Source: Bacteroidales bacterium
GTDB taxonomy: Bacteria; Bacteroidota; Bacteroidia; Bacteroidales; Paludibacteraceae
Reading direction: 5' to 3'
DNA: 61,434 bases
NCBI GenBank assembly: GCA_015061185.1
Contig: SUWZ01000015.1
Coordinates: 1 to 61,434, forward strand
The stretch's first letter is position 1. The number at the start of each line of letters is the position of its first letter. Both the position numbers and the translations under genes were made by a program. Under the pieces are notes generated by a model that was given only the letters and a program-made list of their open reading frames with translations, was not told the DNA's origin and ran no database searches. Shown here in pieces: positions 7,505-57,073 of this stretch.

Positions 7505-7560
7505 CGAATCTATTTTAGCATTTTTTCCTGTGGTTGCAAGCAGTCAAATCTATCCACTTA
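7505..7560 (-). ncRNA. SAM-II-type riboswitch (metA motif)
   Basis: Read on the minus strand, GTGG (7557-7554) pairs with CCAC (7533-7530) around a loop holding GATTTGA and TTGCAA. Then comes an A-rich stretch and GCTAAAATAG. This is the SAM-II layout: a P1 stem, a GAUUUA loop, and UUGC pairing with the downstream GCUAA to form a pseudoknot. The P1 pairs differ from those of the well-known SAM-II sequence that I recall (CGCGC/GCGCG) but stay complementary. It starts right after a -7 box and precedes metK, so the ligand is probably SAM. Confidence 0.7.
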
Positions 7561-7569
7561 AATTTTTTG

Positions 7570-17973: not shown

Positions 17974-18012
17974 TAAAAAAGAAAGGTGTGTCAACCAATA
18001 TGCTGACACACC
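17974..18012 (-). terminator. Terminator of groES-groEL
   Basis: GGTGTGTCA (17985-17993) pairs with TGACACACC (18004-18012). On the minus strand it is followed by TTTCTTTTTT. Confidence 0.85.
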
Positions 18013-18037
18013 CTTTTATAAATAGGGAAAGATAATT

Positions 18038-19687
<1,650 letters not shown>

Positions 19688-19758
19688 TTAAATTATTTTT
19701 ATGTAGAAGTTTTTATAATTCTCTTTATAATGTCGTTTAATGAAATTTTAAGCAATCT

Positions 19759-20028
19759 TTAGATTATTGCCAAAATATCGCTTTGACGCATTATCAAATA
19801 TTTTTCACCTTCTAATTCTAATTCTGTTCCGGCATATTTACCATAAAGCACAATATCGCCTGATTTTACAACCATCTCTTCATCTTTGGTTCCATTACCG
19901 ATTGCGATAACTTCTCCTTTTAATGGTTTCTCTTTTGCTGAGTCCGGAATTATTATTCCACTTGCGGTCTTTTCTTCTGCAGCTGCTGGTTTTACCAAAA
20001 CTCTGTCTGCCAATGGTTTAATATTCAT
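19759..20028 (-). CDS. groES: Co-chaperonin GroES (Hsp10)
   Basis: 89-aa lid subunit for GroEL. It starts [15 protein letters not shown], with the mobile loop [18 protein letters not shown] and the YGKYAGTE segment. First gene of the groES-groEL operon. No CIRCE element (TTAGCACTC-N9-GAGTGCTAA) was seen upstream, so control by HrcA is not evident; see the upstream region for an alternative repeat. Confidence 0.98.
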
Positions 20029-20411
20029 AATTATAATTTTTTATTAAGAGGTATTTAAAATTATTTTCGTTTCTACAATAGAATTAAATAGCCTCTTTGT
20101 TAAACATTTATTTTTAAATTTTGTTTTTGATTCTTTAAAATTCCTTTATTTTTCTGCACAATTTGTGCCAAACAGATTTCTCTGTCATTCTTACCTAAAA
20201 TTGTCTTTACCTAAATTATATCTATGTCATTTTGTCATATTTATCTCTTTGGGTGGGGTCTATAATTTTTTTTGCGAAAGTTTTGAAGTCTGCTTCTATA
20301 ATTTGCTAATCCATTATTGTGGCTGCCTCCCTTATTTTTGATTTCCTTGTCTTTTTTTTGATTTAGTTAAAGTTTTTTATAATATGTTTAGAACTTATTA
20401 CATTTATTACT
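20029..20411. promoter_or_regulatory. groES upstream region with TGTCAT direct repeat
   Basis: No gene in this divergent spacer, which is strongly T-rich. TGTCATTTTGTCAT (20225-20238) is a direct repeat of TGTCAT, and GTGCCA and TGTCAT occur again at about 20160-20195. These may be heat-shock or other regulator sites, but they lie about 130-200 bp from groES. No clear TAnnTTTG box was found on the minus strand. Confidence 0.3.
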
Positions 20412-20419
20412 TAACTTTG
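20412..20419 (+). promoter_or_regulatory. -7 box before the first small lipoprotein
   Basis: TAACTTTG matches TAnnTTTG. The upstream box is poor (TTTA at 21 nt). It lies about 70 bp before the start codon. Confidence 0.5.
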
Positions 20420-20490
20420 CAGAAAATATGGGTGGTGGTTTAGAGTGTTTCTGATTATCGCCGAGTTTTTATAACTAGAATTGATTAAGC

Positions 20491-20688
20491 ATGACTAAGT
20501 TTTTGCTACAGATTTGTGCTTTGTTACTTTTCTTATCTTCTTGTTCAAAGGATGAGGAGTGTATTTGTGAGACGTTTGTCAATGGAGTATTTGAGAAGAG
20601 TGAGAATGTTGATCCGGCAGAGTTTGGGGTTAGTAAATGCAAAGAATTAGATTTTGCTCTATTTGGGACTAGTTATAAATGTAAATAA
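20491..20688 (+). CDS. Tiny Cys-rich lipoprotein, paralogue 1
   Basis: 65 aa. A signal peptide ends in the lipobox LSSC (lipidated Cys 18). The mature part, under 50 residues, has four further Cys: CIC close to the anchor, one in SKCKEL, and one next to the C-terminus (YKCK). The same spacing (CxC, 20-24 residues, C, 13-16 residues, C, end) recurs in the next two genes, so they are tandem paralogues. Probably two disulfides on a lipid-anchored domain. Function unknown. Confidence 0.75.
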   Translation: MTKFLLQICALLLFLSSCSKDEECICETFVNGVFEKSENVDPAEFGVSKCKELDFALFGTSYKCK

Positions 20689-20808
20689 AGGTAATTGAAC
20701 GGTTAATTAATTGGGTTAATTACTTTTGAATGTGATAATATTTCAATAGATATATTATAGGGGAAGTCGAAAACCTTAAGAGTAGACAAAATTTAAATAA
20801 AAAAACAA

Positions 20809-20991
20809 ATGAAAAAGTTATTATTACCAGTTGCAGTTTTGGCAATGGTTTCTATTTCTTGCTCTAAAGAATGTGAGTGCGAAATTAAAATGGGTGGAGA
20901 AGTTATCGAAATAGAAACTGTAGAGATCGAGGACGGTAAATGTTCTGATATGAACAGTGATGTATTCGGTGTTGTTACTGAATGTAAGTAA
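20809..20991 (+). CDS. Tiny Cys-rich lipoprotein, paralogue 2
   Basis: 60 aa with lipobox SISC (Cys 18), then KECECEI, an acidic middle (EVIEIETVEIEDG), GKCSDMNSDVFG and a terminal ECK. The four mature Cys align with the neighbours on both sides. It is followed by its own strong terminator. It is very acidic. Function unknown; location is probably the outer surface of the inner or outer membrane. Confidence 0.78.
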   Translation: MKKLLLPVAVLAMVSISCSKECECEIKMGGEVIEIETVEIEDGKCSDMNSDVFGVVTECK

Positions 20992-21010
20992 TTATTTCGC
21001 TGAAAATTTT

Positions 21011-21050
21011 ATGGAGCAAATTCTTTGTGATTTGCTCCATGTTTTATTTT
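21011..21050 (+). terminator. Terminator after lipoprotein paralogue 2
   Basis: ATGGAGCAAAT (21011-21021) and ATTTGCTCCAT (21030-21040) form a perfect 11-bp stem, followed by GTTTTATTTT. Confidence 0.88.
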
Positions 21051-21138
21051 GGGTGATTACCACAACTCTGTAAACTAAATTTACTACTACAGCAGTTTTT
21101 TTTTGAAAAATTGCCTATTGATGTTTTTCTTATATTTT

Positions 21139-21169
21139 TTTGTTTCTCTTTAAATTATTATTACATTTG
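21139..21169 (+). promoter_or_regulatory. Promoter of lipoprotein paralogue 3
   Basis: TTTG, exactly 19 nt, TACATTTG: a perfect match to the consensus, about 65 bp before the ATG. Confidence 0.8.
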
Positions 21170-21234
21170 CGATATAAAAAAATTTCTTGAGTTGTAAATT
21201 GTGAATTTTAAATTCCGAATATAATTTTTTGAAA

Positions 21235-21441
21235 ATGAAAAGACATATTTTTTTATCAGTATTGTTTTTTATCGGTTTACTCTCTTCATGTACTATTGAT
21301 TGCGAGTGTGTGTTTTACGATGAAACCGGAGAAGTAGTTCCTAGTTATAGTACTGTTTTTGAAGAGGTTGACGTAGCACAATGTTCGGAGTTGTCAACAA
21401 TTTCAACACCGGGAGAGAGAGCAGGGTATATTTGTCCTTAG
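21235..21441 (+). CDS. Tiny Cys-rich lipoprotein, paralogue 3
   Basis: 68 aa starting at the ATG of MKRHIFLSV rather than an in-frame TTG two codons upstream. Lipobox LSSC (Cys 19), then DCECVF, an acidic segment, AQCSEL and the last Cys one residue from the end (ICP). It shares the Cys pattern with the two upstream genes but has its own promoter and terminator. Function unknown. Confidence 0.75.
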   Translation: MKRHIFLSVLFFIGLLSSCTIDCECVFYDETGEVVPSYSTVFEEVDVAQCSELSTISTPGERAGYICP

Positions 21442-21470
21442 TTTTTGGTAATTTATTGAATTGTACTACA

Positions 21471-21509
21471 AAAAGAGGGAGAATCATGGTTGAAATTCTC
21501 CCTCTTTTT
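21471..21509. terminator. Bidirectional terminator
   Basis: AAGAGGGAGAAT pairs with ATTCTCCCTCTT, with A-run before and T-run after. It serves lipoprotein 3 on the plus strand and the biotin carrier gene on the minus strand. Confidence 0.9.
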
Positions 21510-21514
21510 GCGTT

Positions 21515-21829
21515 TTAGTCTAAAAGCATTAGAACTGTGTGTTTGCCAATTTTTTGCTTTTTTTCTACCAAGATTCTCTTTATTTTCCCATCATGTGGCA
21601 TACGTATGATATTTTCCATCTTCATAGCTTCTAAGATGAGCAATGGAGCCCCTTTTAGAAGATTTTCTCCTTCGGTTACAAATATTTGAATGATTGTTCC
21701 GGGTATTTCAGAAACTACTTCGTTTTCGTTCCTTTTTTGATATGGAATCCTATTTTTAAACTTGTTAGTACTGTATGTATTATATCTCCCAGATTCTAAC
21801 AATAATTCTATTTGATTACTTTTTTCCAT
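21515..21829 (-). CDS. Biotinyl-domain (biotin carboxyl carrier) protein
   Basis: 104 aa from the ATG at 21829; an upstream in-frame codon is TTG. The C-terminal 75 residues form a biotinyl/lipoyl domain with EAMKMEN (biotinylated Lys) near residue 73 and preceding GTIIQIFVTEGENL. It carries carboxybiotin for the carboxyltransferase encoded 14 bp upstream. Shorter than the second carrier at 52838. Confidence 0.88.
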   Translation of the reverse strand: MEKSNQIELLLESGRYNTYSTNKFKNRIPYQKRNENEVVSEIPGTIIQIFVTEGENLLKGAPLLILEAMKMENIIRMPHDGKIKRILVEKKQKIGKHTVLMLLD

Positions 21830-21843
21830 GTTCTTCAAATTAA

Positions 21844-23382
21844 TTAGAATGGAGGTAACCCGTGTTTTTTCTTAGGGCGGTGCTCTTCTTTGGCATGAGA
21901 GATTAATAGAGCATGAGCCAATTTTTTTCTTGTTTCTTTTGGCTCTATTATATCATCTATATATCCTTTGGATGCCGCAACATACGGATTGGCAAATTTA
22001 TCTGTGTATTCTTTTACCTTCTCAATTCGAGTTTCTGTTGGATTTTCAGAATTTGAAATGTCTGATTTGAATATGATATTGGCTGCGCCTTCAGGTCCCA
22101 TTACTGCAATTTCTGCAGAAGGCCAAGAGAAGACAAAATCTGCACCTAAGTGTCTTGAATTCATTGCAATATATCCTCCACCGTATGCTTTGCGAAGTAT
22201 GACTGTGATTTTAGGTACAGTAGCTTCTGAATAGGCATAAAGCATTTTTGCTCCATGACGAATTACTCCGGCATGCTCTTGATCGACTCCCGGAAGATAG
22301 CCTGGCATATCTTCTAAGGTTATAATAGGGATATTAAATGAGTCGCAGAATCGTATAAATCGAGCAGCCTTATCTGCGCTATCACAATCCAAAACCCCGG
22401 CTAAATAGAGTGGTTGATTGGCTACAAATCCAACCGTTTTCCCTTCTATTCGTCCAAAACCTATTACTATATTGGGGGCGAATAGTGCCTGCACTTCTAA
22501 GAAGTCTGAATCATCAGCTATCGCTTTGATGATTTCTTTTACATCGTAGGGTTGCTTGGGGTCGTTAGGAATTATATTTTCTATGTTGAACGACTCTTTG
22601 GGCAATTGAGGTGTTATCGTCTGAGGTTGTTCGTTATTGTTTGCCGGTAAGAACGAAAGTAGTTTCTGTATTTGTTGAAAACACTCTTTCTCATCTTTGG
22701 CATAAAAGTGAGCATTCCCCGTTATTTCTGCATGAACTTTTGCACCTCCTAACTCTTCTTGAGATATTTTTTCTCCTAATACTGTTTCAATTACATTGGG
22801 TCCGGTGATGAACATTTTTGAAGTGTTTTCCACCACAAAAACGAAGTCGGTGAGGGCAGGAGAGTAAACAGCTCCTCCTGCGCAAGGACCTAATATTACT
22901 GAAATTTGGGGAACAACACCGGAAGCTAAAGTATTACGATAAAATATTTCTCCATAACCGGCTAATGCATCCACGCCCTCTTGTATTCGAGCACCACCAG
23001 AATCATTGATTCCGATGCAGGGTATTCTCATTTTTAAAGAGTAATCCATCACCTTAGTTATTTTCCTCGCGTGCATTAAACCGAGTGAGCCTCCTTGTAC
23101 AGTAAAGTCTTGTGCATATATGCAAATTGGTCTCCCGTTGATTGTTCCGGTACCAGTGATAACTCCATCGCATGGTAACTCTTTTTTCTCCATGCCAAAA
23201 TCATGTACGTTGTGGCGGACAAACATGTCGCACTCATCGAAGGAGTTTTTATCTAAAATAGCATCAATACGTTCTCTTGCTGTTAATTTGCCAATTGATT
23301 TTTGTTTTTCGATGGCAGATTCACCTCCGCCTAATGCTAATTTATTTTTTTTTGCATTTAATTCGTCTATCTTTTTATTCAT
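21844..23382 (-). CDS. Acyl-CoA carboxyltransferase / methylmalonyl-CoA decarboxylase alpha-type subunit
   Basis: 512 aa, carboxyltransferase family. It has KLTARERID near residue 33, DFTVQGGSLG, the NDSGGARIQEG oxyanion-hole motif, GPCAGGAVYSPALTDF, and in the C-terminal half EDMPGYLPG and RKAYGGGYIAM. Relatives transfer CO2 between biotin and propionyl/methylmalonyl-CoA. Its own biotin carrier follows but no biotin carboxylase or OadB-type membrane subunit is adjacent, so it may share the carboxylase at 53403 or act as a decarboxylase. The exact substrate is unresolved. Confidence 0.85.
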   Translation of the reverse strand: MNKKIDELNAKKNKLALGGGESAIEKQKSIGKLTARERIDAILDKNSFDECDMFVRHNVHDFGMEKKELPCDGVITGTGTINGRPICIYAQDFTVQGGSLGLMHARKITKVMDYSLKMRIPCIGINDSGGARIQEGVDALAGYGEIFYRNTLASGVVPQISVILGPCAGGAVYSPALTDFVFVVENTSKMFITGPNVIETVLGEKISQEELGGAKVHAEITGNAHFYAKDEKECFQQIQKLLSFLPANNNEQPQTITPQLPKESFNIENIIPNDPKQPYDVKEIIKAIADDSDFLEVQALFAPNIVIGFGRIEGKTVGFVANQPLYLAGVLDCDSADKAARFIRFCDSFNIPIITLEDMPGYLPGVDQEHAGVIRHGAKMLYAYSEATVPKITVILRKAYGGGYIAMNSRHLGADFVFSWPSAEIAVMGPEGAANIIFKSDISNSENPTETRIEKVKEYTDKFANPYVAASKGYIDDIIEPKETRKKLAHALLISHAKEEHRPKKKHGLPPF

Positions 23383-23422
23383 TTTTTTGCATTTATTTTT
23401 CGTTTAACGCATGGGGTAGCTA

Positions 23423-24502
23423 TTATTTTGGAGCCTTTTTGTATAGATACACAGCTATCAAAGAAAATACGATATTAGGAAGCCATACAGCTACCATAGG
23501 AGGTAGCGAGCCATTGATGGTAAATGTAGATGAAATTTCTCCAAATAGAATATAGACAATACTTAAAAGTAGTCCGATTCCCAAGTTGATTCCCATACCT
23601 CCTTTAACTTTTTTTGATGAAAGTGATACTCCAATTATAGTCAAGATGAAGGCTGCGAAAGGGAATGAGAATCTTTTTTCATACTCTATTTCGAAATTCT
23701 TTATATTTCCGACCCCTCGTTCCTTCTGCCGTTCTATATAGGCAGACAACTTCCTATTGTTCATCTGTTCGTGCATATTAGGGAATACCAATAAGTCTGC
23801 AGGTATGATGTTAATCTCTTTTACCATGGTATCTCCCTGACTTATATTTTCATATAAACCATCAAATTCGCGATGCGTGTATCTCGTTATCTTCCATACA
23901 TTCGTAGTGTCGTAAATAAGTCGATGTCCGGTAATTCTTGAAACTAATGTCTTGCCGTTAAATTGGTCTAAAGATACTCTATGACCGGTATTTTCTGTGT
24001 GATCGAAGTAATCAACATAAAGAATTTCATTCTGAGAAACCTTTATTTGTAACTTCGCAACAAAATCCTTCTTTTTCTTTCTGACATACTCTTCTTGAAA
24101 ATCCAATCGAATTTTATTTGCAGGAGGAATGACATATCCCCCTAAAATATATGTCATGGAGGCTATGATAGATGCTGAAATTAGGTATGGAACCATCATT
24201 CTGTGGAAGCTGATACCTGATGCAAAAGTGGCGATGATTTCTGAATTGTCTGCCATCTTCGACGTGAAAAATATCACAGCAATGAATGTAAATAAAGGAC
24301 TGAATAGATTTGCGTAATAGGGAATAAAATTTACATAGTAGTCGAAAATAATAGCTCTTAGAGGAGCTTCATTTTCATAAAAGTTATCTAGTTTTTCTGA
24401 GATGTCGAATACCACTGCAATACTGATTATCAGAATAATAGATAAAAAGTATGTCCCTAAAAACTTTTTAATGATATAGGTGTCGAATCGTTTTAAAATC
24501 AT
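23423..24502 (-). CDS. LptF/LptG-family permease (YjgP/YjgQ)
   Basis: 359 aa with three N-terminal membrane segments, a periplasmic beta-jellyroll middle (residues about 125-265) and three C-terminal segments, the YjgP/YjgQ layout. Such proteins are the membrane subunits that extract LPS for transport to the outer membrane. It starts MILKRFDTYIIKKFLGTY. The start overlaps the tgt stop by 4 bp, a pairing seen in related genomes. Confidence 0.88.
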   Translation of the reverse strand: MILKRFDTYIIKKFLGTYFLSIILIISIAVVFDISEKLDNFYENEAPLRAIIFDYYVNFIPYYANLFSPLFTFIAVIFFTSKMADNSEIIATFASGISFHRMMVPYLISASIIASMTYILGGYVIPPANKIRLDFQEEYVRKKKKDFVAKLQIKVSQNEILYVDYFDHTENTGHRVSLDQFNGKTLVSRITGHRLIYDTTNVWKITRYTHREFDGLYENISQGDTMVKEINIIPADLLVFPNMHEQMNNRKLSAYIERQKERGVGNIKNFEIEYEKRFSFPFAAFILTIIGVSLSSKKVKGGMGINLGIGLLLSIVYILFGEISSTFTINGSLPPMVAVWLPNIVFSLIAVYLYKKAPK

Positions 24503-25629
24503 AATCTATTGCTCATTTGATTTACCATTTGATTCTTCCAAACAGAAAAATCTCCTGCGATAATGTGCTTTCTTGCCTCTTTCACCAACCAAAGGTAAAA
24601 AGCCAAGTTATGGATAGAAGCTATCTGCATTCCCAATAGTTCGTTAGAAACCAATAGATGTCGTAAATATGCTTTGGTATAAGCTGTATCAACGTATGAT
24701 GCACCTTCCGGGTCGATTGGGGAAAAGTCATCTGCCCACTTTTTGTTTCGCATATTCATTGTCCCATATTTAGTGAACAACATTCCATTCCGACCATTTC
24801 GAGTAGGCATCACACAATCAAACATATCAACGCCACGCTCTATTGCTTCCAAAATGTTGATTGGTGTACCAACGCCCATCAAATAGCGAGGCTTCTCTTT
24901 CGGTAATATTTCGTTCACGACTTCAATCATTTCATACATAACCTCGGCCGGTTCGCCTACCGCCAAACCTCCGATAGCATTCCCTTCTCTATTTTGTTCT
25001 GCAACAAATTCTGCCGAACGTTGGCGTAAGTCTTTGTAAGTACAACCTTGAACAATTGGGAAAAATGTTTGACTATAACCATATTTAGGTTCTGTCTCGT
25101 CAAAATGTTTCAATCCTCGCAACAACCAACGTTGAGTTCTTTCCAATGACTTTTTTGCGTAATTATAGTCGGCTGTGCCCGGAGTGCATTCATCAAGAGC
25201 CATAATTATGTCTGCTCCTATGATACGTTGTGTATCCACTACATTTTCAGGAGTAAATATATGTCTGGAGCCATCAATGTGAGATTGAAATGTGCATCCC
25301 TCTTCTGTTAGTTTTCTCATACCGGTAAGCGAGAAAACTTGAAAACCTCCGCTGTCAGTAAGTATGGGTTTGTCCCAGCCGTTAAATTTATGCAGCCCTC
25401 CTGCTTTTTCTAAGATATTCAAGCCCGGTCGAAGATATAGGTGGTAGGTGTTCCCTAATATGATTTGAGCTTGAATGTCTTCTTTTAACTCTTTTTGGTG
25501 TACTGCTTTTACTGAACCAACCGTTCCCACGGGCATGAAAATTGGTGTTTCAATTTCTCCGTGGTCGGTAATTAATTTACCGGCTCTTGCGCCACTTTTT
25601 AAATCGGTATGTTGTAATTGAAATTGCAT
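24499..25629 (-). CDS. tgt: Queuine tRNA-guanosine ribosyltransferase
   Basis: 376 aa. Exchanges guanine for preQ1 at position 34 of tRNAs with GUN anticodons. Seen: MPVGTVGSVKAV, GNTYHLYLRPG, the substrate-binding DSGGFQVFS with catalytic Asp, MALDECTPG, and MPTRNGRNG. The usual CxCxxC zinc ligands before AYLRHL are replaced by EGASYVD, although the following AYLRHLL and SIHNLAFY match the family. It is first in the tgt-lptG pair. Confidence 0.94.
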   Translation of the reverse strand: MQFQLQHTDLKSGARAGKLITDHGEIETPIFMPVGTVGSVKAVHQKELKEDIQAQIILGNTYHLYLRPGLNILEKAGGLHKFNGWDKPILTDSGGFQVFSLTGMRKLTEEGCTFQSHIDGSRHIFTPENVVDTQRIIGADIIMALDECTPGTADYNYAKKSLERTQRWLLRGLKHFDETEPKYGYSQTFFPIVQGCTYKDLRQRSAEFVAEQNREGNAIGGLAVGEPAEVMYEMIEVVNEILPKEKPRYLMGVGTPINILEAIERGVDMFDCVMPTRNGRNGMLFTKYGTMNMRNKKWADDFSPIDPEGASYVDTAYTKAYLRHLLVSNELLGMQIASIHNLAFYLWLVKEARKHIIAGDFSVWKNQMVNQMSNRL

Positions 25630-25700
25630 GCTACAAATTTAAGAAACTCTTTTTAATTATCTTGAAAAGGTTTGAATTTTGTTTTTTATTTTTAGTTTTA

Positions 25701-26948
25701 TTATTCAAAACGAATGGCTTTTATCGGTGCAATTCGTGTAATAATATGGGTTGATAATCTTAAAACTAAGTAGGAGATGATTATTGTTCCTACGTTAACT
25801 AAAACAATGTTGAAGAATGATAATTCAATTGGAACGGAATCTACATAATACATTTCAGGATCTAATTTTAAAACAGCAAATTTTTTCTGAATTAAAGTCA
25901 AAGTCAAGGCTATAAAATTCCCCCAAACCATTCCTTTCCCGACCAATAATAGGGTATGATAGAGAAATATATTTTTTATGGACTGGTTGGTAGCACCTAA
26001 TGCCTTGAGTATTCCTATCATGTTGGTTCTATCTAAAATTAGAATCAACAAGCCTGATATCATAGTGAAACTTGCTACTGCTATCATGAGAATCAGAATA
26101 ATTACCACATTTGTATTGAGCAGATCCAACCAACCAAATATTTGAGGATTGATTTGTTGTATACTTTTCATCATGTAGTAGTTTCCTGCTTCGTCTGTTC
26201 TATTCCCTATAATGTTAAATAAAGATTCTTGAACCTCCTCAATCAATGAAAAATCGTTTATCTCAATTTCTATTCCACTGCATTCGTCTTCTGTCCATTT
26301 ATTGAGTTTGCGTATGTGTTTGATGTCGCCTATGATAAATATTTTGTCATAATCAGAGAATCCTGTTGTGTAAATGCCGCTAACTGTAAATGGACGAACT
26401 CTTACTTTCCCGTCTATAATAAAATAGGTGAAAAATTTATCTCCAACTTCTAGTTGTAGTAAATCGGCGATTTTTTTTGAAATTAAAGTCTGATTAGTTG
26501 ATGAACTATCGTTAATTTGAAATATTTCTCCGGCAATAAGATAGTTTTCAAAAAATGTCCAATCGTAATCTTTGTCTATTCCTTTTAAGACAACCCCCTG
26601 AAAATTTCCATCTACTTTAACAATTCCCGGTTGAGTCGCAAATTGTTGAGCATGTTTGACGTCTGGGAGTAAATTGATTCTGTCTATCAGTGATGAATCA
26701 ATTTTTAGAGATTGAGTTTTGTAGGTGTGATTGGAGAATGAAGATGAAATTTGAATGTGAGAGCCAAAGCCGATTAGTTTGTTGCGAACTTCTTGTTTAA
26801 AACCAATAACGATACCAACAGACAATATCATTACAGCTAAACTTAAAGCAATTCCTCCCATTGTTAAACGAACAATAGGACGGGAGATTTTGCGTTCTCC
26901 CTCCTTATTGAATTGTATTCGTTTAGCAATGAAAAATTCAAACTTCAT
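25701..26948 (-). CDS. FtsX/LolE-like ABC transporter permease
   Basis: 415 aa. One N-terminal membrane segment (residues about 28-50), a large periplasmic MacB-type domain and three C-terminal FtsX segments ending in APIKAIRFE. This is the LolC/LolE layout, which extracts lipoproteins from the inner membrane. The ATPase partner is not adjacent, so the specific role is inferred. It follows the aminotransferase gene by 14 bp. Confidence 0.85.
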   Translation of the reverse strand: MKFEFFIAKRIQFNKEGERKISRPIVRLTMGGIALSLAVMILSVGIVIGFKQEVRNKLIGFGSHIQISSSFSNHTYKTQSLKIDSSLIDRINLLPDVKHAQQFATQPGIVKVDGNFQGVVLKGIDKDYDWTFFENYLIAGEIFQINDSSSTNQTLISKKIADLLQLEVGDKFFTYFIIDGKVRVRPFTVSGIYTTGFSDYDKIFIIGDIKHIRKLNKWTEDECSGIEIEINDFSLIEEVQESLFNIIGNRTDEAGNYYMMKSIQQINPQIFGWLDLLNTNVVIILILMIAVASFTMISGLLILILDRTNMIGILKALGATNQSIKNIFLYHTLLLVGKGMVWGNFIALTLTLIQKKFAVLKLDPEMYYVDSVPIELSFFNIVLVNVGTIIISYLVLRLSTHIITRIAPIKAIRFE

Positions 26949-26962
26949 TGTTAGTTATTTTT

Positions 26963-28162
26963 TCAAAGTGTGCGTCCTGGATAAACTTCCAACGCCTTTT
27001 TTAGAACAAAAAGAGCTTTAGATAACTCCTCTTTTTCCAAAACATAGGCTAATCGAACCTCGTTTTTCCCAATCTCTTTTCCGGTATAGAATCCGGAAGC
27101 AGGAGCCATCATTACGGTTTGACCTTCAAATTCGAAATCGTTTAACAACCAAGCACAGAATTTGTCGGAGTCATCAATTGGTAATCGGGCAACCGTATAG
27201 AACGCACCCATCGGAATAGGAGAGTAAACTCCCGGTATGCGATTAAGTCCATCGATCAAATACTTACGTCGTTCAACATACTCATTGTACATCTCCAACA
27301 TATACTCCTCAGGTGTATCCATTGAAGCTTCAGCAATGATTTGCCCAATTAGCGGAGGACTTAGCCTTGCTTGACAGAATTTCATCACACTTTTTCTAAC
27401 CTCTGCATTTTTTGTAACCAATGCTCCAATACGAATTCCACACTCGCTATATCTTTTAGAAACAGAGTCGAACAAGATGATATTTTCTTCAATTCCGTCC
27501 AAATGGAACGCAGAAATGTAGGGTGCGCCCGTATAGCAAAACTCTCGATAAACTTCATCCGAGAACAGGTATAAGTCATATTTCTTTACCAAATCACGGA
27601 TTTTATTCATCTCTTTTTGTGTGTATAAATAGCCGGTCGGGTTGTTGGGGTTACAGATTAATATACCTTTTGTTCGTGGAGTTATCATCTCTTCGAACTT
27701 GTCTATATGAGGAAGTGCAAATCCCTCTTCTATAGTAGATACTATAGGCTTGATGGTAGCTCCCGCTGCAATTGCAAATGCAGTATAATTGGCGTATGCA
27801 GGTTCTGGTACAATAATCTCATCTCCAGGATCTAAACATGCCATAAATGCAAAATTTACAGCTTCAGACCCTCCGCAAGTGATGATAATATCGTTGCTTG
27901 TTACGTTGATTTTAAATTTTTGATAATATTCAGCCAATTTGGTGCGGAGACTCTTGATTCCATCACTCGGACTATATTCGAGAATATCTCGATCAATCTT
28001 TTTTAGAGCATCTAATGCGATGCGCGGAGTTTTTAAGTCCGGCTGACCAATATTTAAGTGATAAACTTTAATCCCTCTTTCTTTGGCTTTGTCCGATAAA
28101 GGAACCAATTTCCGAATAGGGGACTCAGGCATAATCTGACCTCTTTGTGATGTCTGTGGCAT
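26963..28162 (-). CDS. Class I/II pyridoxal phosphate aminotransferase
   Basis: 399 aa of fold type I. Seen: YSPSDGIKSLR, NPNNPTGYLY, SDEVYREF and the PLP Lys in SVSKRYSECGIRIG. The Bacteroidota relatives are usually named aspartate aminotransferase; the exact amino donor cannot be told. The leader (28163-28262) has a -7 box TATCTTTG (28263-28270 on the minus strand), a hairpin AAGGGA/TCCCT and the palindrome AAAAACTAGTTTTT at 28204-28217. Confidence 0.9.
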   Translation of the reverse strand: MPQTSQRGQIMPESPIRKLVPLSDKAKERGIKVYHLNIGQPDLKTPRIALDALKKIDRDILEYSPSDGIKSLRTKLAEYYQKFKINVTSNDIIITCGGSEAVNFAFMACLDPGDEIIVPEPAYANYTAFAIAAGATIKPIVSTIEEGFALPHIDKFEEMITPRTKGILICNPNNPTGYLYTQKEMNKIRDLVKKYDLYLFSDEVYREFCYTGAPYISAFHLDGIEENIILFDSVSKRYSECGIRIGALVTKNAEVRKSVMKFCQARLSPPLIGQIIAEASMDTPEEYMLEMYNEYVERRKYLIDGLNRIPGVYSPIPMGAFYTVARLPIDDSDKFCAWLLNDFEFEGQTVMMAPASGFYTGKEIGKNEVRLAYVLEKEELSKALFVLKKALEVYPGRTL

Positions 28163-51301: not shown

Positions 51302-52822
51302 CTATAAAGGAATATTGCCATGTTTTTTAGCCGGATTAGAACGAATCTTAGTATGTGTCATATCCAATGCTTGAATCAATTTTTCTCTAGTTTGAGATGG
51401 CAATATGATTTCATCTATATATCCTAATTCCGCAGCTCTGTACGGATTAGAGAACTCCTCTTCGTATTCTTTTCTTACTTTTTCCTTCTCTTCATCCGAA
51501 ACATTCTTGTACAGAATATTGACAGCACCATCTTGTCCCATTACAGCAATCTCAGCATTAGGGTAAGCAAAGTTAATATCTGCTCCGGTATGTTTACTAG
51601 ACATTACAATATAGGCCCCTCCGTATGCCTTTCTGGTGATAATTGTAATTTTTGGAACAGTTGCTTCTACGTAGGCATATACAATCTTTGCTCCGTGACG
51701 GATGATTCCTCCATGCTCTTGTGTACATCCCGGTAAGAATCCAGGAACATCCACAAATGATACAATTGGAATGTTGAAGCAATCACAGAAGCGAATAAAT
51801 CTTGCCGACTTGTCGGCTGTATCAATATCCAAAACTCCGGCTTGATAAGCAGGTTGGTTGGCAACAATACCGATTACTTTTCCATCAATTCTTGCAAATC
51901 CGGTCAAGATATTAGGTGCAAATCCCTCCATGATTTCAAAGAAATATCCACCATCTACGACAGACTCAATCAACTCTACCATGTCATACGGTTTGCTTGG
52001 ATCTGTTGGGATAAAGTTGTCTAAGTCTGATGAACTTGAGTAGGCATCTGTAGATGGTAATCTTGGTGCATCATCCATATTGTTTGAAGGCAAGAATGCC
52101 AGCAACTCTCTAACCATCAATAATGTATCCTCTTCTGTTTCTCCGATGAAGTGAGCAACACCACTCTTCGTGGTATGAACAGCAGCACCTCCTAATCCTT
52201 CTTTGTCTATCTCTTCGTGAGTTACGGTTTTAACGACATCCGGCCCGGTTACAAACATGTGACTATGTTCTTTCACCATAAAGATGAAGTCCGTAAGGGC
52301 AGGAGAGTAGCATGCACCACCGGCACAAGGTCCCAATATGACAGAGATTTGGGGAATAACTCCTGATGAGATTGTGTTTTGATAGAAAATATCTCCGTAT
52401 CCGGACAAACTAGAAACACCTTCCTGAATTCTGGCACCTCCGGAATCATTCAATGCAATAATTGGCGCCCCCATTTTTAGAGCTAACTTTTGTACTTTAA
52501 CAATTTTATTTGCATTAGTTCTGCTTAATGACCCTCCTAAAACTGTAAAGTCGTATGCATATACATAAACCAATCTTCCATCAATTTTTCCATAACCGGA
52601 AATAACGCCGTCACCGGCTTGTTTTGATTTATCTAATCCAAAATTGCTACATTGATGAATCACGAATTTATCAATTTCGACAAACGTACCCTTGTCTAAT
52701 AATAATTCAATTCTTTCTCTTGCAGTCATTTTGCCGGCTTGATGTTGCTTTTCGATTCTTGCTGCATTACCGGCCTCTGCTAGGCGATTCAATTCAATGA
52801 ATTTCTCGTTGGCTGATTTCAT
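51302..52822 (-). CDS. Acyl-CoA carboxylase carboxyltransferase subunit (propionyl-CoA type)
   Basis: 506 aa. Same family as the protein at 21844: GKMTARERIELLLDKGTF, DFTVLGGSLS, NDSGGARIQEGV, GPCAGGACYSPALTDF, VDVPGFLPG, RKAYGGAYIVM. Together with the carrier and biotin carboxylase just upstream it forms a complete biotin-dependent acyl-CoA carboxylase, most likely using propionyl-CoA, with acetyl-CoA possible. Last gene of the operon, followed by a strong terminator. Confidence 0.9.
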   Translation of the reverse strand: MKSANEKFIELNRLAEAGNAARIEKQHQAGKMTARERIELLLDKGTFVEIDKFVIHQCSNFGLDKSKQAGDGVISGYGKIDGRLVYVYAYDFTVLGGSLSRTNANKIVKVQKLALKMGAPIIALNDSGGARIQEGVSSLSGYGDIFYQNTISSGVIPQISVILGPCAGGACYSPALTDFIFMVKEHSHMFVTGPDVVKTVTHEEIDKEGLGGAAVHTTKSGVAHFIGETEEDTLLMVRELLAFLPSNNMDDAPRLPSTDAYSSSSDLDNFIPTDPSKPYDMVELIESVVDGGYFFEIMEGFAPNILTGFARIDGKVIGIVANQPAYQAGVLDIDTADKSARFIRFCDCFNIPIVSFVDVPGFLPGCTQEHGGIIRHGAKIVYAYVEATVPKITIITRKAYGGAYIVMSSKHTGADINFAYPNAEIAVMGQDGAVNILYKNVSDEEKEKVRKEYEEEFSNPYRAAELGYIDEIILPSQTREKLIQALDMTHTKIRSNPAKKHGNIPL

Positions 52823-52837
52823 GTGTTATTATTTAGG

Positions 52838-53350
52838 TTAAACTTCAGGCATTTCACATAACTCAAGCAATACTTGATTGCCGGCTATATTATCGCCCTC
52901 TTTGACTAAAATCTTTTTAATTTTGCAATCGTCATTTACTTTATATTCACTTTGCATCTTCATTGCTTCAATGACAATTACAGGTGTACCGGCTTTAACT
53001 TCGTCTCCCTCATTTACCATGATTCTGACAACCTTACCCGGCATTGGTGAAAATATTCTATCTTGTTTTTCGCTTGCTTTGGTCTTTTTTGTTAGGTATT
53101 GATATGTGTTCAATACTTCAACGGGAAAAGCATTAAAAGCTACACTAACAGTGTATTTTTGACCATTATTTTCAGGCTTTAATTCTGCATTGTAAGAACG
53201 ACCATTTTTTGTTATAATGGAGCATAAACCATTTTCAGCCATTACAATGTCAAGATAGTAAACCTTCCCATCAACGGATACTTCTACGTTATTTCCGTCT
53301 TTATTGATGAGTGAAATTTCTTTGATCTTATTTCCGATCTTGATTTTCAT
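52838..53350 (-). CDS. Biotin carboxyl carrier protein
   Basis: 170 aa from the ATG of MKIKIGNK; the six upstream codons are not needed. An N-terminal region for contact with the carboxylase, then a biotinyl domain with VIEAMKMQSE near residue 133. Middle gene of the carboxylase operon, with a spacing of 15 bp to the next gene. Confidence 0.92.
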   Translation of the reverse strand: MKIKIGNKIKEISLINKDGNNVEVSVDGKVYYLDIVMAENGLCSIITKNGRSYNAELKPENNGQKYTVSVAFNAFPVEVLNTYQYLTKKTKASEKQDRIFSPMPGKVVRIMVNEGDEVKAGTPVIVIEAMKMQSEYKVNDDCKIKKILVKEGDNIAGNQVLLELCEMPEV

Positions 53351-53402
53351 ATAAATATAGTTTAACAAGCGTGTTATTTTAATACACTCCTGTTGGTTTT
53401 AC

Positions 53403-54932
53403 TTAATCATAATTTCTCATGCTGGAACGTTTCCCAAACTCTCTCCAACGACTAATAGGACGATTATCAGTTGAAGTGGAAGATCCACTTCTTTCCTCGT
53501 TTATCATATAGTCAAAGTAAGCTGCTATTGCAGCGATATCTTCTGCTGTTTGTAAATCCTCAGATTCGTCATCAATGGTAACATTCTCTAAGAATTTTTT
53601 ATTATCTTCCAAAAATGAAGTTGTGTAATGCCCGTTTACAAAGTCTGGCACTTCCAAAATTTTTCGCAAGTAACTGATGTTTGTCTTTGTTCCGGTGATT
53701 TTATATTCAAACAGCACTCTTCTCATTCGTTCTATAGCATAAGTTCTGTTGGCTGCCCAAACAACCAATTTACTTAGCATGGCATCATAATAGATAGGTA
53801 TTTCATAACCTTCGTAGCAGAAACTATCCACACGAACACCAATACCTTGAGGCTCTGTAATCAACTTGATGATTCCGGGTGTTGGAACAAATCCATTTTC
53901 TGCATCTTCAGCACAAATACGACACTCTATAGCATGACCTCTTTGAGATAAATCCTCTTGTTTGAATCTTAGAGGATTTCCATTGGCTACATTGATTTGT
54001 TCTTTTACTAAATCAACTCCTAAAACCTCTTCTGTGATAGGATGCTCTACTTGCAATCTTGTATTCATCTCCAAGAAGTAGTAGTTCATGTCCTTATCCA
54101 CCAAGAACTCAATTGTTCCTGCACCTTCGTATGCAACAGCTTTGGCGGCTCTTACTGCAATTTCACCCATCTCATGACGAATCTTGTCAGTAATATAAGG
54201 AGAAGGAGTTTCTTCAATCACCTTTTGATGTTTGCGTTGGATAGAACATTCCCTTTCGTATAAGTGAACAGCATTCCCATGTTTGTCTGCCAAGACTTGG
54301 AATTCGATATGATGAGGTTGTTCGATCAATTTCTCCATGTAGATAATTCCATTGGCAAAAGATGCAGTTGCTTCTGAAATCGCACTCTCGTAAGCATTTT
54401 TAAGTTCATCTAATTCTCTGATGATTCGAATACCTTTACCACCACCACCGGCCGAAGCTTTAATCATAACAGGTAATCCAATCTCTTTTGCGGTGCTAAG
54501 AGCCTCTTCGTAAGACTGAAGTGGTTGTTCGGTTCCCGGAACTACCGGAACTCCTGCCGAAATCATTAATTTTCGTGCAGATATTTTGTCTCCCATTGCA
54601 CGGATTGCTTTGTAGGGAGCTCCAATGAAAATAATTCCTTCTTTTTCACATCTTTCTGCAAAATCTGCATTTTCAGAAAGAAAACCATATCCGGGGTGGA
54701 TTGCATCCGCTTTGAATTTTTTTGCAGCTTCAATGATATTGTCAACTTTAAGATAACTTTCAGCTGACTGTGCCGGACCTATACACACTGCTTCGTCTGC
54801 AAAAAAAACATGACGAGATGTTCGGTCAGCCTCTGAATAAACTGCCACCGTTTTAATACCCATTTCTTTGCACGAGCGCATAACTCTCATTGCAATTTCT
54901 CCACGGTTGGCAACCAGAATTTTTGAAATCAT
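53403..54932 (-). CDS. accC: Biotin carboxylase (acyl-CoA carboxylase subunit)
   Basis: 509 aa from the ATG of MISKILVANRGEIAMR; 16 upstream codons are rejected because MISKILVANRG is the family start. ATP-grasp motifs KASAGGGGKGIRI, MEKLIEQPHHIEFQ, ECSIQRKHQKVIEE and EMNTRLQVEHP. A C-terminal tail of about 60 residues goes beyond the E. coli length. Carboxylates biotin for one or both carboxyltransferases in this window. The gene has a long structured leader. Confidence 0.95.
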   Translation of the reverse strand: MISKILVANRGEIAMRVMRSCKEMGIKTVAVYSEADRTSRHVFFADEAVCIGPAQSAESYLKVDNIIEAAKKFKADAIHPGYGFLSENADFAERCEKEGIIFIGAPYKAIRAMGDKISARKLMISAGVPVVPGTEQPLQSYEEALSTAKEIGLPVMIKASAGGGGKGIRIIRELDELKNAYESAISEATASFANGIIYMEKLIEQPHHIEFQVLADKHGNAVHLYERECSIQRKHQKVIEETPSPYITDKIRHEMGEIAVRAAKAVAYEGAGTIEFLVDKDMNYYFLEMNTRLQVEHPITEEVLGVDLVKEQINVANGNPLRFKQEDLSQRGHAIECRICAEDAENGFVPTPGIIKLITEPQGIGVRVDSFCYEGYEIPIYYDAMLSKLVVWAANRTYAIERMRRVLFEYKITGTKTNISYLRKILEVPDFVNGHYTTSFLEDNKKFLENVTIDDESEDLQTAEDIAAIAAYFDYMINEERSGSSTSTDNRPISRWREFGKRSSMRNYD

Positions 54933-55186
54933 ATACACAAAACATTTTTTTGAGTTCAGACGAACTTCGTCTTTGCTCATTCGATTTTCAACTTGTAAGT
55001 TGATTAAGTTAATACTGTCACTTTAAAACCCTGAAAAGTGAATTATTATGGAAGAGCATACCGCATCTTCTTTCCTGTCATACTCTAATGACGTTCGTGT
55101 TTTCTCTTTCCAAACTATGCGGAAAGTACAAATCGTGTAACGGGTTCTTACGCTCGATTTGAGACTTGGACCTTTTAGACCAAAAT
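54933..55186 (-). ncRNA. Long structured leader of the accC operon
   Basis: About 250 nt between a good promoter and the accC ATG. Seven inverted repeats: 55166-55183 (TTGGACCTTTTAGACCAA, two mismatches), AAATCG/CGATTT (55130-55135, 55155-55160), ATGCGG/CCGCAT (55117-55122, 55061-55066), GTCAT/ATGAC (55077-55081, 55088-55092), TCACTTT/AAAGTGA (55018-55024, 55035-55041), CAACTTGTAAGTTG (54989-55002) and GACGAACTTCGTC (54959-54971). I do not recognise a known riboswitch. A cis-regulatory RNA is inferred; the short frame MTGKKMRYALP within it could be chance. Confidence 0.55.
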
Positions 55187-55191
55187 CGGCA

Positions 55192-55223
55192 CAAAGATAT
55201 ATTTGTTTTTTTAATTAACCAAA
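55192..55223 (-). promoter_or_regulatory. Promoter of the accC operon
   Basis: On the minus strand TTTG, 20 nt, TATCTTTG. Sets a leader of about 250 nt before accC. Confidence 0.7.
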
Positions 55224-55346
55224 AAAGATACGTTCAATCTTTTTATAGCCTCTTTTATTCTTGCTCTTTTTTCTTGTTGTTATAGCTTATAACTATCTAA
55301 TTATGATAGTGAATATTAAAAAAATAACAATTTATGTAAAAAAAGG

Positions 55347-55377
55347 TTTTTGAACTTCTGAATATTTTATAAATTTG
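55347..55377 (+). promoter_or_regulatory. Promoter of the dicarboxylate transporter
   Basis: TTTT, 19 nt, TAAATTTG. The transcript would start just before Rep1 copy C, placing that element in the 5' leader. Confidence 0.6.
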
Positions 55378-55388
55378 CGACTCTTAAA

Positions 55389-55588
55389 TTAAAGTTGTTT
55401 AAATTTTATTTTGAGCATATTTATGAGCGATTTTTAAGATTATTTTTATTATTTTTCTTAATGAAGTTAATAGTGTTCTATTCACAAAAAAGAGTAGTAA
55501 TGATAGGTTAAAAAGCTATTCAAAGATGCCGAAAAAAAGAGTGAAGCTCAAAATCAAATTTAATAATAAAATTTAAACAACTTCTTAG
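55389..55588. repeat. Rep1 copy C, full palindromic element
   Basis: Aligns over its whole length with copy B: left AAAGTTGTTTAAATTTTATT, reverse complement of the right end AAGAAGTTGTTTAAATTTTAT, with TTCAAAGATGCCGAAA in the right arm and tip AATAGTGTTCTATT. Lies in the leader of the dicarboxylate transporter operon. Confidence 0.8.
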
Positions 55589-55648
55589 TGCTAAAATGCC
55601 ATTTAGGAGTGTGAATTTAATAAAATAAGGTTTAATAAATAATTTATT

Positions 55649-57073
55649 ATGGATTCAAAAAAACTAATAGGATTAGCTATTTCTGTTGTTTTGACATTGA
55701 TAGCATGGTTCTTACCTCTGGATAGTTTTGGTATTCCGGGGTTGACTATTATCGAACAACGAGTGATTGCGTTGTTTATTTTTGCAGCTTGTATGTGGAT
55801 TTCAGAAGCTATTCCAATTTGGACTACATCTGTTTTGGTGTTGGTGCTTATGTTATTGACTACATCTGACAGTATGTTTAATTTTATGAAAGTTGATGAT
55901 GTTTTGTTTGGAACACCTATTAAAAATAAAGCTTTGATGGCTTCTTTTGCTGACCCAACCATTATGTTGTTTATGGGTGGTTTTGTGTTGGCTATTACTG
56001 CTACCAAATATAAATTGGATGCAGCTTTGGCTAAAGTTATGTTGGCTCCTTTCGGAACTCGTTCAGAGATTGTGATGTTAGGTTTTATCTTGGTTACTGC
56101 TATTTTCTCTATGTTCATGAGTAATACCGCAACGGCTGCTATGATGTTGGCAATTTTAACTCCGGTATTATCTTCTCTTCCTGCAGATGGAAAGGGACGT
56201 ATCGGTTTAGCGTTGTCTATTCCTATTGCTGCTAATGTGGGAGGAATTGGTACGCCTATTGGTACTCCTCCGAATGCCATAGCTAAAGGTAACTTGGAAA
56301 ACTTATTGGGTATCAATATCGGGTTTGGAGATTGGGCAATGGTGATGATTCCTCTTGCCATGGTTGTTTTACTAATTATGTGGTTTGTCTTGATTAAGAT
56401 GTTCCCATTCTCTCAAAAAAATATCAAGATTGAGATTGATGGTGAGTTTGAAAAGAGTCCTAAGGCTTACATTGTTTATATTACATTTGCATTAACAATT
56501 TTATTGTGGGTTACAGATAAATTGACAGGAGTTAATGCCAATGTGGTTGCGTTGATTCCTTTTGCAGTGTTCAGCGTTTGTGGAATCTTCACTAAGGAGG
56601 ACTTACGCTTGATTGATTGGGATGTGCTTTGGTTGGTTGCCGGAGGCTTTGCATTGGGAATTGGTTTGGATAAAACCGGTTTGGCAGAGCATTTGGTTAA
56701 CGCCATTCCATTTAATACGTGGTCTCCTTTGGTTGTGATAGTTGGTTCCGGTTTGTTGTGTATTGTGATGTCCACCTTTATGTCTAACTCTGCAACGGCT
56801 GCTTTGTTGATTCCAATCTTGGCAGCTGTAGGGTCTGGAATGGAAGCAGAGTTGTTGCCATTTGGTGGGGCTAAAACATTGTTAATTGGATTGGCTCTGT
56901 CAGCATCGTTTGCGATGGCATTACCAATCAGTACTCCTCCAAATGCCTTGGCATACGCAAAAGGTTTTATCCAACAAAAGGATATGGCTATTGTAGGAAT
57001 TATTGCCGGAGTTGTGGGTATGTTGTTAGGATATGTTGTTTTAGTGTTTGTAGGGGAAGCCGGTTTGCTATAA
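55649..57073 (+). CDS. SLC13/DASS-family sodium:dicarboxylate symporter
   Basis: 474 aa with about 11 membrane segments. The two SNT motifs are seen: MFMSNTATAAMML and FMSNSATAALLIP, each followed by a Pro-rich segment (GTPIGTPPNAIA, PISTPPNALA). This family imports succinate, fumarate or citrate with Na+. The porin gene follows by 12 bp, so a transporter-porin pair for a small acid is likely. The leader holds a Rep1 element. Confidence 0.92.
   Translation: MDSKKLIGLAISVVLTLIAWFLPLDSFGIPGLTIIEQRVIALFIFAACMWISEAIPIWTTSVLVLVLMLLTTSDSMFNFMKVDDVLFGTPIKNKALMASFADPTIMLFMGGFVLAITATKYKLDAALAKVMLAPFGTRSEIVMLGFILVTAIFSMFMSNTATAAMMLAILTPVLSSLPADGKGRIGLALSIPIAANVGGIGTPIGTPPNAIAKGNLENLLGINIGFGDWAMVMIPLAMVVLLIMWFVLIKMFPFSQKNIKIEIDGEFEKSPKAYIVYITFALTILLWVTDKLTGVNANVVALIPFAVFSVCGIFTKEDLRLIDWDVLWLVAGGFALGIGLDKTGLAEHLVNAIPFNTWSPLVVIVGSGLLCIVMSTFMSNSATAALLIPILAAVGSGMEAELLPFGGAKTLLIGLALSASFAMALPISTPPNALAYAKGFIQQKDMAIVGIIAGVVGMLLGYVVLVFVGEAGLL

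Follow-up and report, generated by a model that had tools for sequence, protein, structure and literature searches.

The window analysed here, a 61,434-nt stretch of DNA from a Bacteroidales bacterium of the Paludibacteraceae, carries a carboxylase operon on its minus strand. It comprises accC for biotin carboxylase (53403–54932; TIGR00514, 664 bits, above cut-off), a gene for a biotin carrier protein (52838–53368; family matches, all under their curated cut-offs) and a gene for an MmdA-like carboxyltransferase (51302–52822; TIGR01117, 765.7 bits, under the cut-off of 998.8). The -7 promoter element of the operon, TATCTTTG, matches the motif TAnnTTTG and lies at 55192–55199 (-), with a -33-like element, TTTTTTGG, about 19 nt upstream of it. 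From the TAnnTTTG to the accC ATG (54932–54930) the spacing is about 255 nt; no closer TAnnTTTG was found between TATCTTTG and the ATG, and no terminator-like site was found in 54800–55650. The genus to which the window belongs is represented by 16 genomes with 15 distinct leaders (those of L017 and L018 are identical), which leader alignment and an accC tree divide into subclades A (the window and its closest relative, G012), B, C and D. In all 16 genomes the nearest TAnnTTTG lies 147–267 nt 5′ of the accC ATG, and within the promoter region (55192–55236) the window and G012 differ at one of 45 positions. From this recurrence, and from the lack of any nearer motif, we infer that transcription starts at the distal promoter, which would give accC a 259-nt leader (54933–55191, minus strand). 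Published work in PMC7366714 covers thetaiotaomicron, apparently its 5′ UTRs. Divergently from the operon, an SLC13 (DASS) transporter gene starts at ATG 55649 and appears to have a leader of its own, about 270 nt long (55381–55648, plus strand). This leader contains a perfect 17-bp long-range helix (55394–55410 with 55565–55581), whose arms carry three changes in G012, every one still paired as G·U.

Each of the 16 genus genomes yielded one AccC match at E ≤ 1e-100. Methylmalonyl-CoA mutase (PF01642) was found in none of the 16, in a search that was positive for 8 of 14 control genomes, including E. coli and Bacteroides ihuae, and classical AccA exceeded its cut-off in 2 of 41 genomes, neither of them in the genus. 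Given this single AccC and a genus with neither mutase nor classical AccA, the operon probably encodes the acetyl-/acyl-CoA carboxylase of the cell, and judging by gene content the accC product looks like its only biotin carboxylase. The window also encodes a second MmdA-like carboxyltransferase (21844–23382, minus strand), with no AccC-like ORF of at least 120 aa nearby (18000–27000); within the genus, two carboxyltransferase matches occur in the window genome and G012 only. The genus lies near the Paludibacteraceae: AccC shares 82–86% identity with the proteins of four MAGs (L031–L033 and L039), three of them named as Paludibacteraceae and one as Bacteroidales, two of whose sources are yak omasum and horse faeces. 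The source organism itself looks like a gut or rumen bacterium.

Within the leader we counted eight non-overlapping Watson-Crick stems of at least 5 bp, allowing loops of 3–30 nt: CAAATCG/CGATTTG, CTTTCC/GGAAAG, GTCAT/ATGAC, GAAGA/TCTTC, TCACTTT/AAAGTGA, TCAACT/AGTTGA, AGACGA/TCGTCT and CAAAA/TTTTG. Dinucleotide shuffles of the same stretch contained 3.99 ± 1.14 such stems, and none of 500 reached eight. The excess persisted for stems of at least 6 bp (5 versus 1.64 ± 1.05; 4/500 shuffles), while for stems of at least 7 bp the count was 2 versus 0.53 (40/500). The preliminary description of a promoter followed by about 250 nt rich in inverted repeats is thus borne out. Folded as a whole, the leader is only moderately better than chance (-59.3 kcal/mol, z = -2.02, 4 of 200 shuffles).

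The hairpins are distributed unevenly over the genus. At the 5′ end lies P1 (GATTT.GG/CC.AAGTC, 55163–55187, minus strand), in which one G·U pair has become A-U in G012; subclades B and C have 5′ hairpins as well, those of L020 and L021 being weak, and P1 is absent from D. The next four, CAAATCG/CGATTTG, CTTTCC/GGAAAG, GTCAT/ATGAC and GAAGA/TCTTC (55051–55161, minus strand), belong to subclade A alone: their pairs are all kept in G012, and the region, about 100 nt of extra hairpins, is a gap in the alignment of the 13 other distinct leaders. The hairpin TCACTTT/AAAGTGA (55018–55041, minus strand) has identical pairs in G012 and no alignable helix outside subclade A. A long-range helix CACGAA/TTTGTG with an invariant 3′ arm was seen in subclade-A folds. 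The pair CCGCAT/ATGCGG (55122–55117 and 55066–55061), which had been proposed to close a multi-branched fold, does exist and does enclose GTCAT/ATGAC; the multi-branched fold, however, is broken in the sister genome, where only four of the six pairs remain, and it competes with the overlapping CTTTCC/GGAAAG hairpin.

Comparison with G012 revealed that substitutions avoid the stems. The two leaders differ at 17 of 259 positions, and only one of these changes falls within 92 stem bases (seven of the eight counted stems, CAAAA/TTTTG excluded, plus the outer helix of P4, the hairpin beside the accC ATG), where it turns A-U into G-U and keeps the pair. With P1 included, two of the 17 changes fall within 110 nt and both keep pairing; the chance probabilities, P = 0.005 and P = 0.006, respectively, are too favourable, because five of the 17 substitutions cluster in one loop. 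For scale, the same two genomes differ at 49 of 260 positions in the SLC13 leader, at 8 of 93 in the inter-promoter stretch and at 60 of 742 in SLC13 coding DNA, and accC coding DNA is 95.7% identical. Beside the sequence upstream of the promoter, the window/G012 leader is the less divergent (6.6% vs 11.6%).

Across the genus, all 15 distinct leaders share three elements: the sequence TTAATCAAC(T/C), the hairpin P4 and AAATGTTTKTG 5′ of the ATG. The first lies at 54998–55007 (minus strand), its sole variant being TTTAACCAACC in L023. Ahead of the accC start codon the window carries the conserved AAAATGTTTTGTG (54936–54948, minus strand), which reads AAAATGTTTGTG in subclades C and D and AAATGTTTTGTG in B. 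The 5′ half of the leader, by contrast with these shared elements, is unalignable between subclades.

P4 is a two-part hairpin, TGAG/CTCA and AGACGA/TCGTCT in the window (54951–54979, minus strand), and its 3′ end lies 16–18 nt before the accC ATG in all 14 leaders compared (L018, identical to L017, and L027, whose P4 equals that of L026, add nothing distinct). The outer helix is fully paired in all 14 while its sequence changes: subclade A has TGAG/CTCA and B has AGGG/TCCT, GGAC/GTCC is shared by C and some D leaders, and the remaining D leaders have GGGT/ACCC, GGGT/GCCC or GGGC/GCCC. When the arms of these six distinct pairs were re-paired at random, 111 of 20,000 arrangements paired fully. 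In the C/D alignment of eight leaders, 96.8% of P4 cells are paired, cells with a double change number 10 against 3.9 ± 1.5, and the covariation score, computed on a structure derived from the same sequences, is 0.491 against 0.225 ± 0.053 (0/500), with 0.183 for the best slid control; two of the five measures in this test were not unusual (88/500 each), and by our reading of the accC tree the double changes of the outer helix within C/D amount to about two events. The conservation and compensatory changes in related genomes on which the preliminary description had made its proposal depend were therefore found for P4. Its stability is variable: the mean z over the 14 leaders is -1.99, and in L017, L019 and L020 the values of -0.76, -0.63 and +0.07 indicate little or none above that of shuffles. 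Overall, the hairpin adjoining the start codon appears to have been kept by selection in the genus, and on this ground the leader probably has a real role, in control or in protection.

Between P4 and the accC AUG runs an A/U-rich stretch, AAAATGTTTKTG, and Bacteroidota mostly lack a Shine-Dalgarno site. In each of the 14 leaders, the stretch from -15 to +6 was predicted to be more open behind the native upstream sequence than it was on average behind shuffled versions; taken singly, the leaders equalled or exceeded between 14 and 30 of their 30 shuffles in openness, and leaders that are related do not count as independent. Leaders whose structure insulates or regulates the initiation of translation are a known general kind of 5′ element. 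The window leader resembles them in placing a hairpin just 5′ of a predicted open start region and differs in that its sequence is confined to one genus and its function is predicted. By this model, the local hairpins would form independently and shield the start region from the rest of the long leader upstream, leaving the AUG open for the ribosome; the 5′ hairpins would slow mRNA decay, and the leader would thereby set the level of the apparently sole biotin carboxylase. To this reading, a genuine structured leader of this operon and genus only, in which local hairpins keep the start region insulated and the RNA protected, we give about an even chance.

A plainer account is that the promoter lies far upstream by chance and that the hairpins are of little consequence. 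Such a passive leader would suit a 5′ half that differs between subclades and the mixed whole-leader z-scores (-2.84 to +0.30 across 13 genus leaders), and most relatives in genus g20 have a TAnnTTTG only about 73 nt before the ATG. Against it stand the long promoter-to-ATG distance in 16 of 16 genus genomes, the avoidance of stems by substitutions and the compensatory change in P4, and we consider it unlikely. The g20 leaders (L114–L120) are about 64 nt long with one strong hairpin, AAAGTGCACCAC...GGTGGACTTT, and the two that were folded have z-scores of -5.0 (L114) and -3.5 (L118). By eye, genera g4 and g5 have long accC leaders; those of g4 (L111–L113 and L122) span about 225–241 nt, and in them GAGGCTT could pair, again by eye, with AAGCCTT or GAGCCTC a short way upstream of the start region (z = +0.77 in L111, -0.63 in L113 and -1.63 in L122).

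Two coding explanations of the leader were considered and rejected. An N-terminal extension of AccC from the in-frame ATG at 54980 would apply to the two subclade-A genomes alone, as only these have an in-frame upstream ATG; among the other 14 genus genomes, upstream in-frame starts are GTG or TTG in nine, and five have no start codon. The second was a mini-ORF. In 13 of 16 genomes an ORF of 4–5 codons from the conserved ATGTTT (MFCV, MFVKL or MFVKI) ends on the accC start with an ATGA overlap, which is absent in the window, G012 and L024. Where present, among the L017–L030 leaders, the overlap could provide translational coupling, but it cannot explain the window leader because both subclade-A genomes lack it.

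We also looked for a known RNA class. At gathering score, Rfam matched only a SAM-II riboswitch and a tRNA in the whole window and nothing at the accC leader, and at E ≤ 5 it had no match over 54800–55650, cobalamin riboswitch RF00174 included. The leader thus lies outside the curated Rfam classes, as the preliminary description had surmised; a degenerate cobalamin riboswitch was excluded on the same grounds, and an attenuator with a terminator was dismissed since the region holds no terminator-like site. The SAM-II riboswitch, at 7505–7563 (minus strand), scores 66.4 bits, above its gathering score. A narrow literature search found no paper on the accC leader.

A covariance model built from subclades C and D (R1) was then used to search 61 genomes under strict filters. 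Among the matches listed it recovered nine C/D accC leaders and further matches at E 0.31 and 0.51 and missed the A and B leaders; these matches included no second locus for the leader, within the reach of a model that does not extend to A and B. In 24 sources, R1 matched L015, L016, L017 and L019 at E 0.37–1.1 and returned nothing for L020 and L021, and unrelated sites in L029 and L030 scored equally high. As R1 fails to prove kinship, it is the conserved anchors flanking P4 that support its being related from one subclade to another.

These results bear on the suggestion that the leader senses a metabolite or biotin. A riboswitch of a new class, with biotin, an acyl-CoA, a corrinoid or another ligand, would fit a long multi-hairpin leader that no known class matches, and RNA-level control has a precedent at this operon, since five relatives from other genera carry a cobalamin riboswitch upstream of it. 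However, a conserved aptamer is unsupported, because the subclades differ in their 5′ halves and the matches that R1 listed in 61 genomes revealed no further locus: what the leaders have in common is two short motifs and P4 instead of an aptamer-like core, P4 is the only helix with compensatory changes, and among the matches listed the element stands at no other gene, of one pathway or otherwise. The lack of a terminator-like site and the pace of change also speak against it: in four of seven close pairs the leader is more divergent than the 70 nt preceding the promoter, and in three it is less so (in L025/L030, 26 of 146 positions differ in the leader versus 1 of 70 upstream). We therefore regard a new riboswitch class as distinctly improbable. 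Hairpins above chance that are kept in relatives are, in turn, what a structured leader should have, and the element fits a general kind already known, as a structured leader that is unregistered and was seen in one genus.

Regulation by the leader is possible, and the conserved TTAATCAAC and P4 are candidate sites at which a trans-acting regulator may bind. In E. coli, the carboxyltransferase of acetyl-CoA carboxylase reportedly represses translation of its own mRNA. The enzyme here is of the same kind and might likewise be controlled through its own mRNA, although the carboxyltransferase is MmdA-like and is not known to bind it. An RNA-binding protein, be it a carboxylase subunit, a biotin-protein ligase or some other, that lowers translation by occupying P4 or TTAATCAAC would account for a conserved sequence and a conserved hairpin beside the start codon of what is apparently the sole biotin carboxylase, in an enzyme of a committed step, and for finding no second copy among the matches listed in 61 genomes. 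The binding partner is hypothetical, however, and the loops and inner helix of P4 vary widely among leaders, so that we hold such autogenous or protein-mediated control, the main rival of the insulating leader, to be rather unlikely.

The riboswitches of other genera were examined at family level. Of 150 family genomes, 45 had an AccC match at E ≤ 1e-150 and 105 did not, and Rfam was scanned over 47 upstream loci, 16 of the genus and 31 of 32 others (G093, with 75 nt to the contig end, was excluded). Five of the 47, L128, L129, L133, L135 and L140, from genera g2, g6, g7, g48 and g57, carry RF00174 on the same strand, 155–423 nt before the accC ATG. No Rfam match was found upstream of accC at the other 42, among which the stretches of L115, L136 and L139 measure only 110–211 nt. 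A small cysteine-rich ORF separates riboswitch and accC in L129 (MKKTCPRCNQDF...) and in L140 (MNKICPSCNSLF...), and in L128 a promoter-like element is nearer to accC than the riboswitch; owing to these, riboswitch control of accC in the three is likely but not certain.

All five riboswitch bearers encode the mutase, compared with one (G089) of 15 genomes chosen from the other 26, the remaining 14 being negative. The riboswitch therefore stands upstream of the operon in five of the six mutase-bearing relatives examined (Fisher P = 0.0004, or 0.00002 with the 16 genus genomes, both uncorrected for kinship). By contrast, X. ruminicola lacks a cobalamin riboswitch in the vicinity of its genes for the propionate pathway (PMC11575231). 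Like RF00174 in these relatives, the window leader is a structured RNA upstream of an orthologous accC operon on the same strand; unlike it, the window leader has no RF00174 match at E ≤ 5, and the 16 genus genomes, in contrast to the bearers, encode no mutase. It is conceivable, if improbable, that after loss of the B12-dependent mutase in this lineage the cobalamin riboswitch of the operon gave way to a new regulatory leader that changes fast, which would tune the only malonyl-CoA-forming enzyme of the cell through some signal or protein.

If functional, the leader would offer uncultured Bacteroidales of rumen and gut, which lack a classical AccA, a point at which to control the first step in making fatty acids. 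With a cobalamin riboswitch in mutase-bearing members and an unclassified leader in members without the enzyme, a single family would allow a direct test of whether one kind of RNA control took the place of another.
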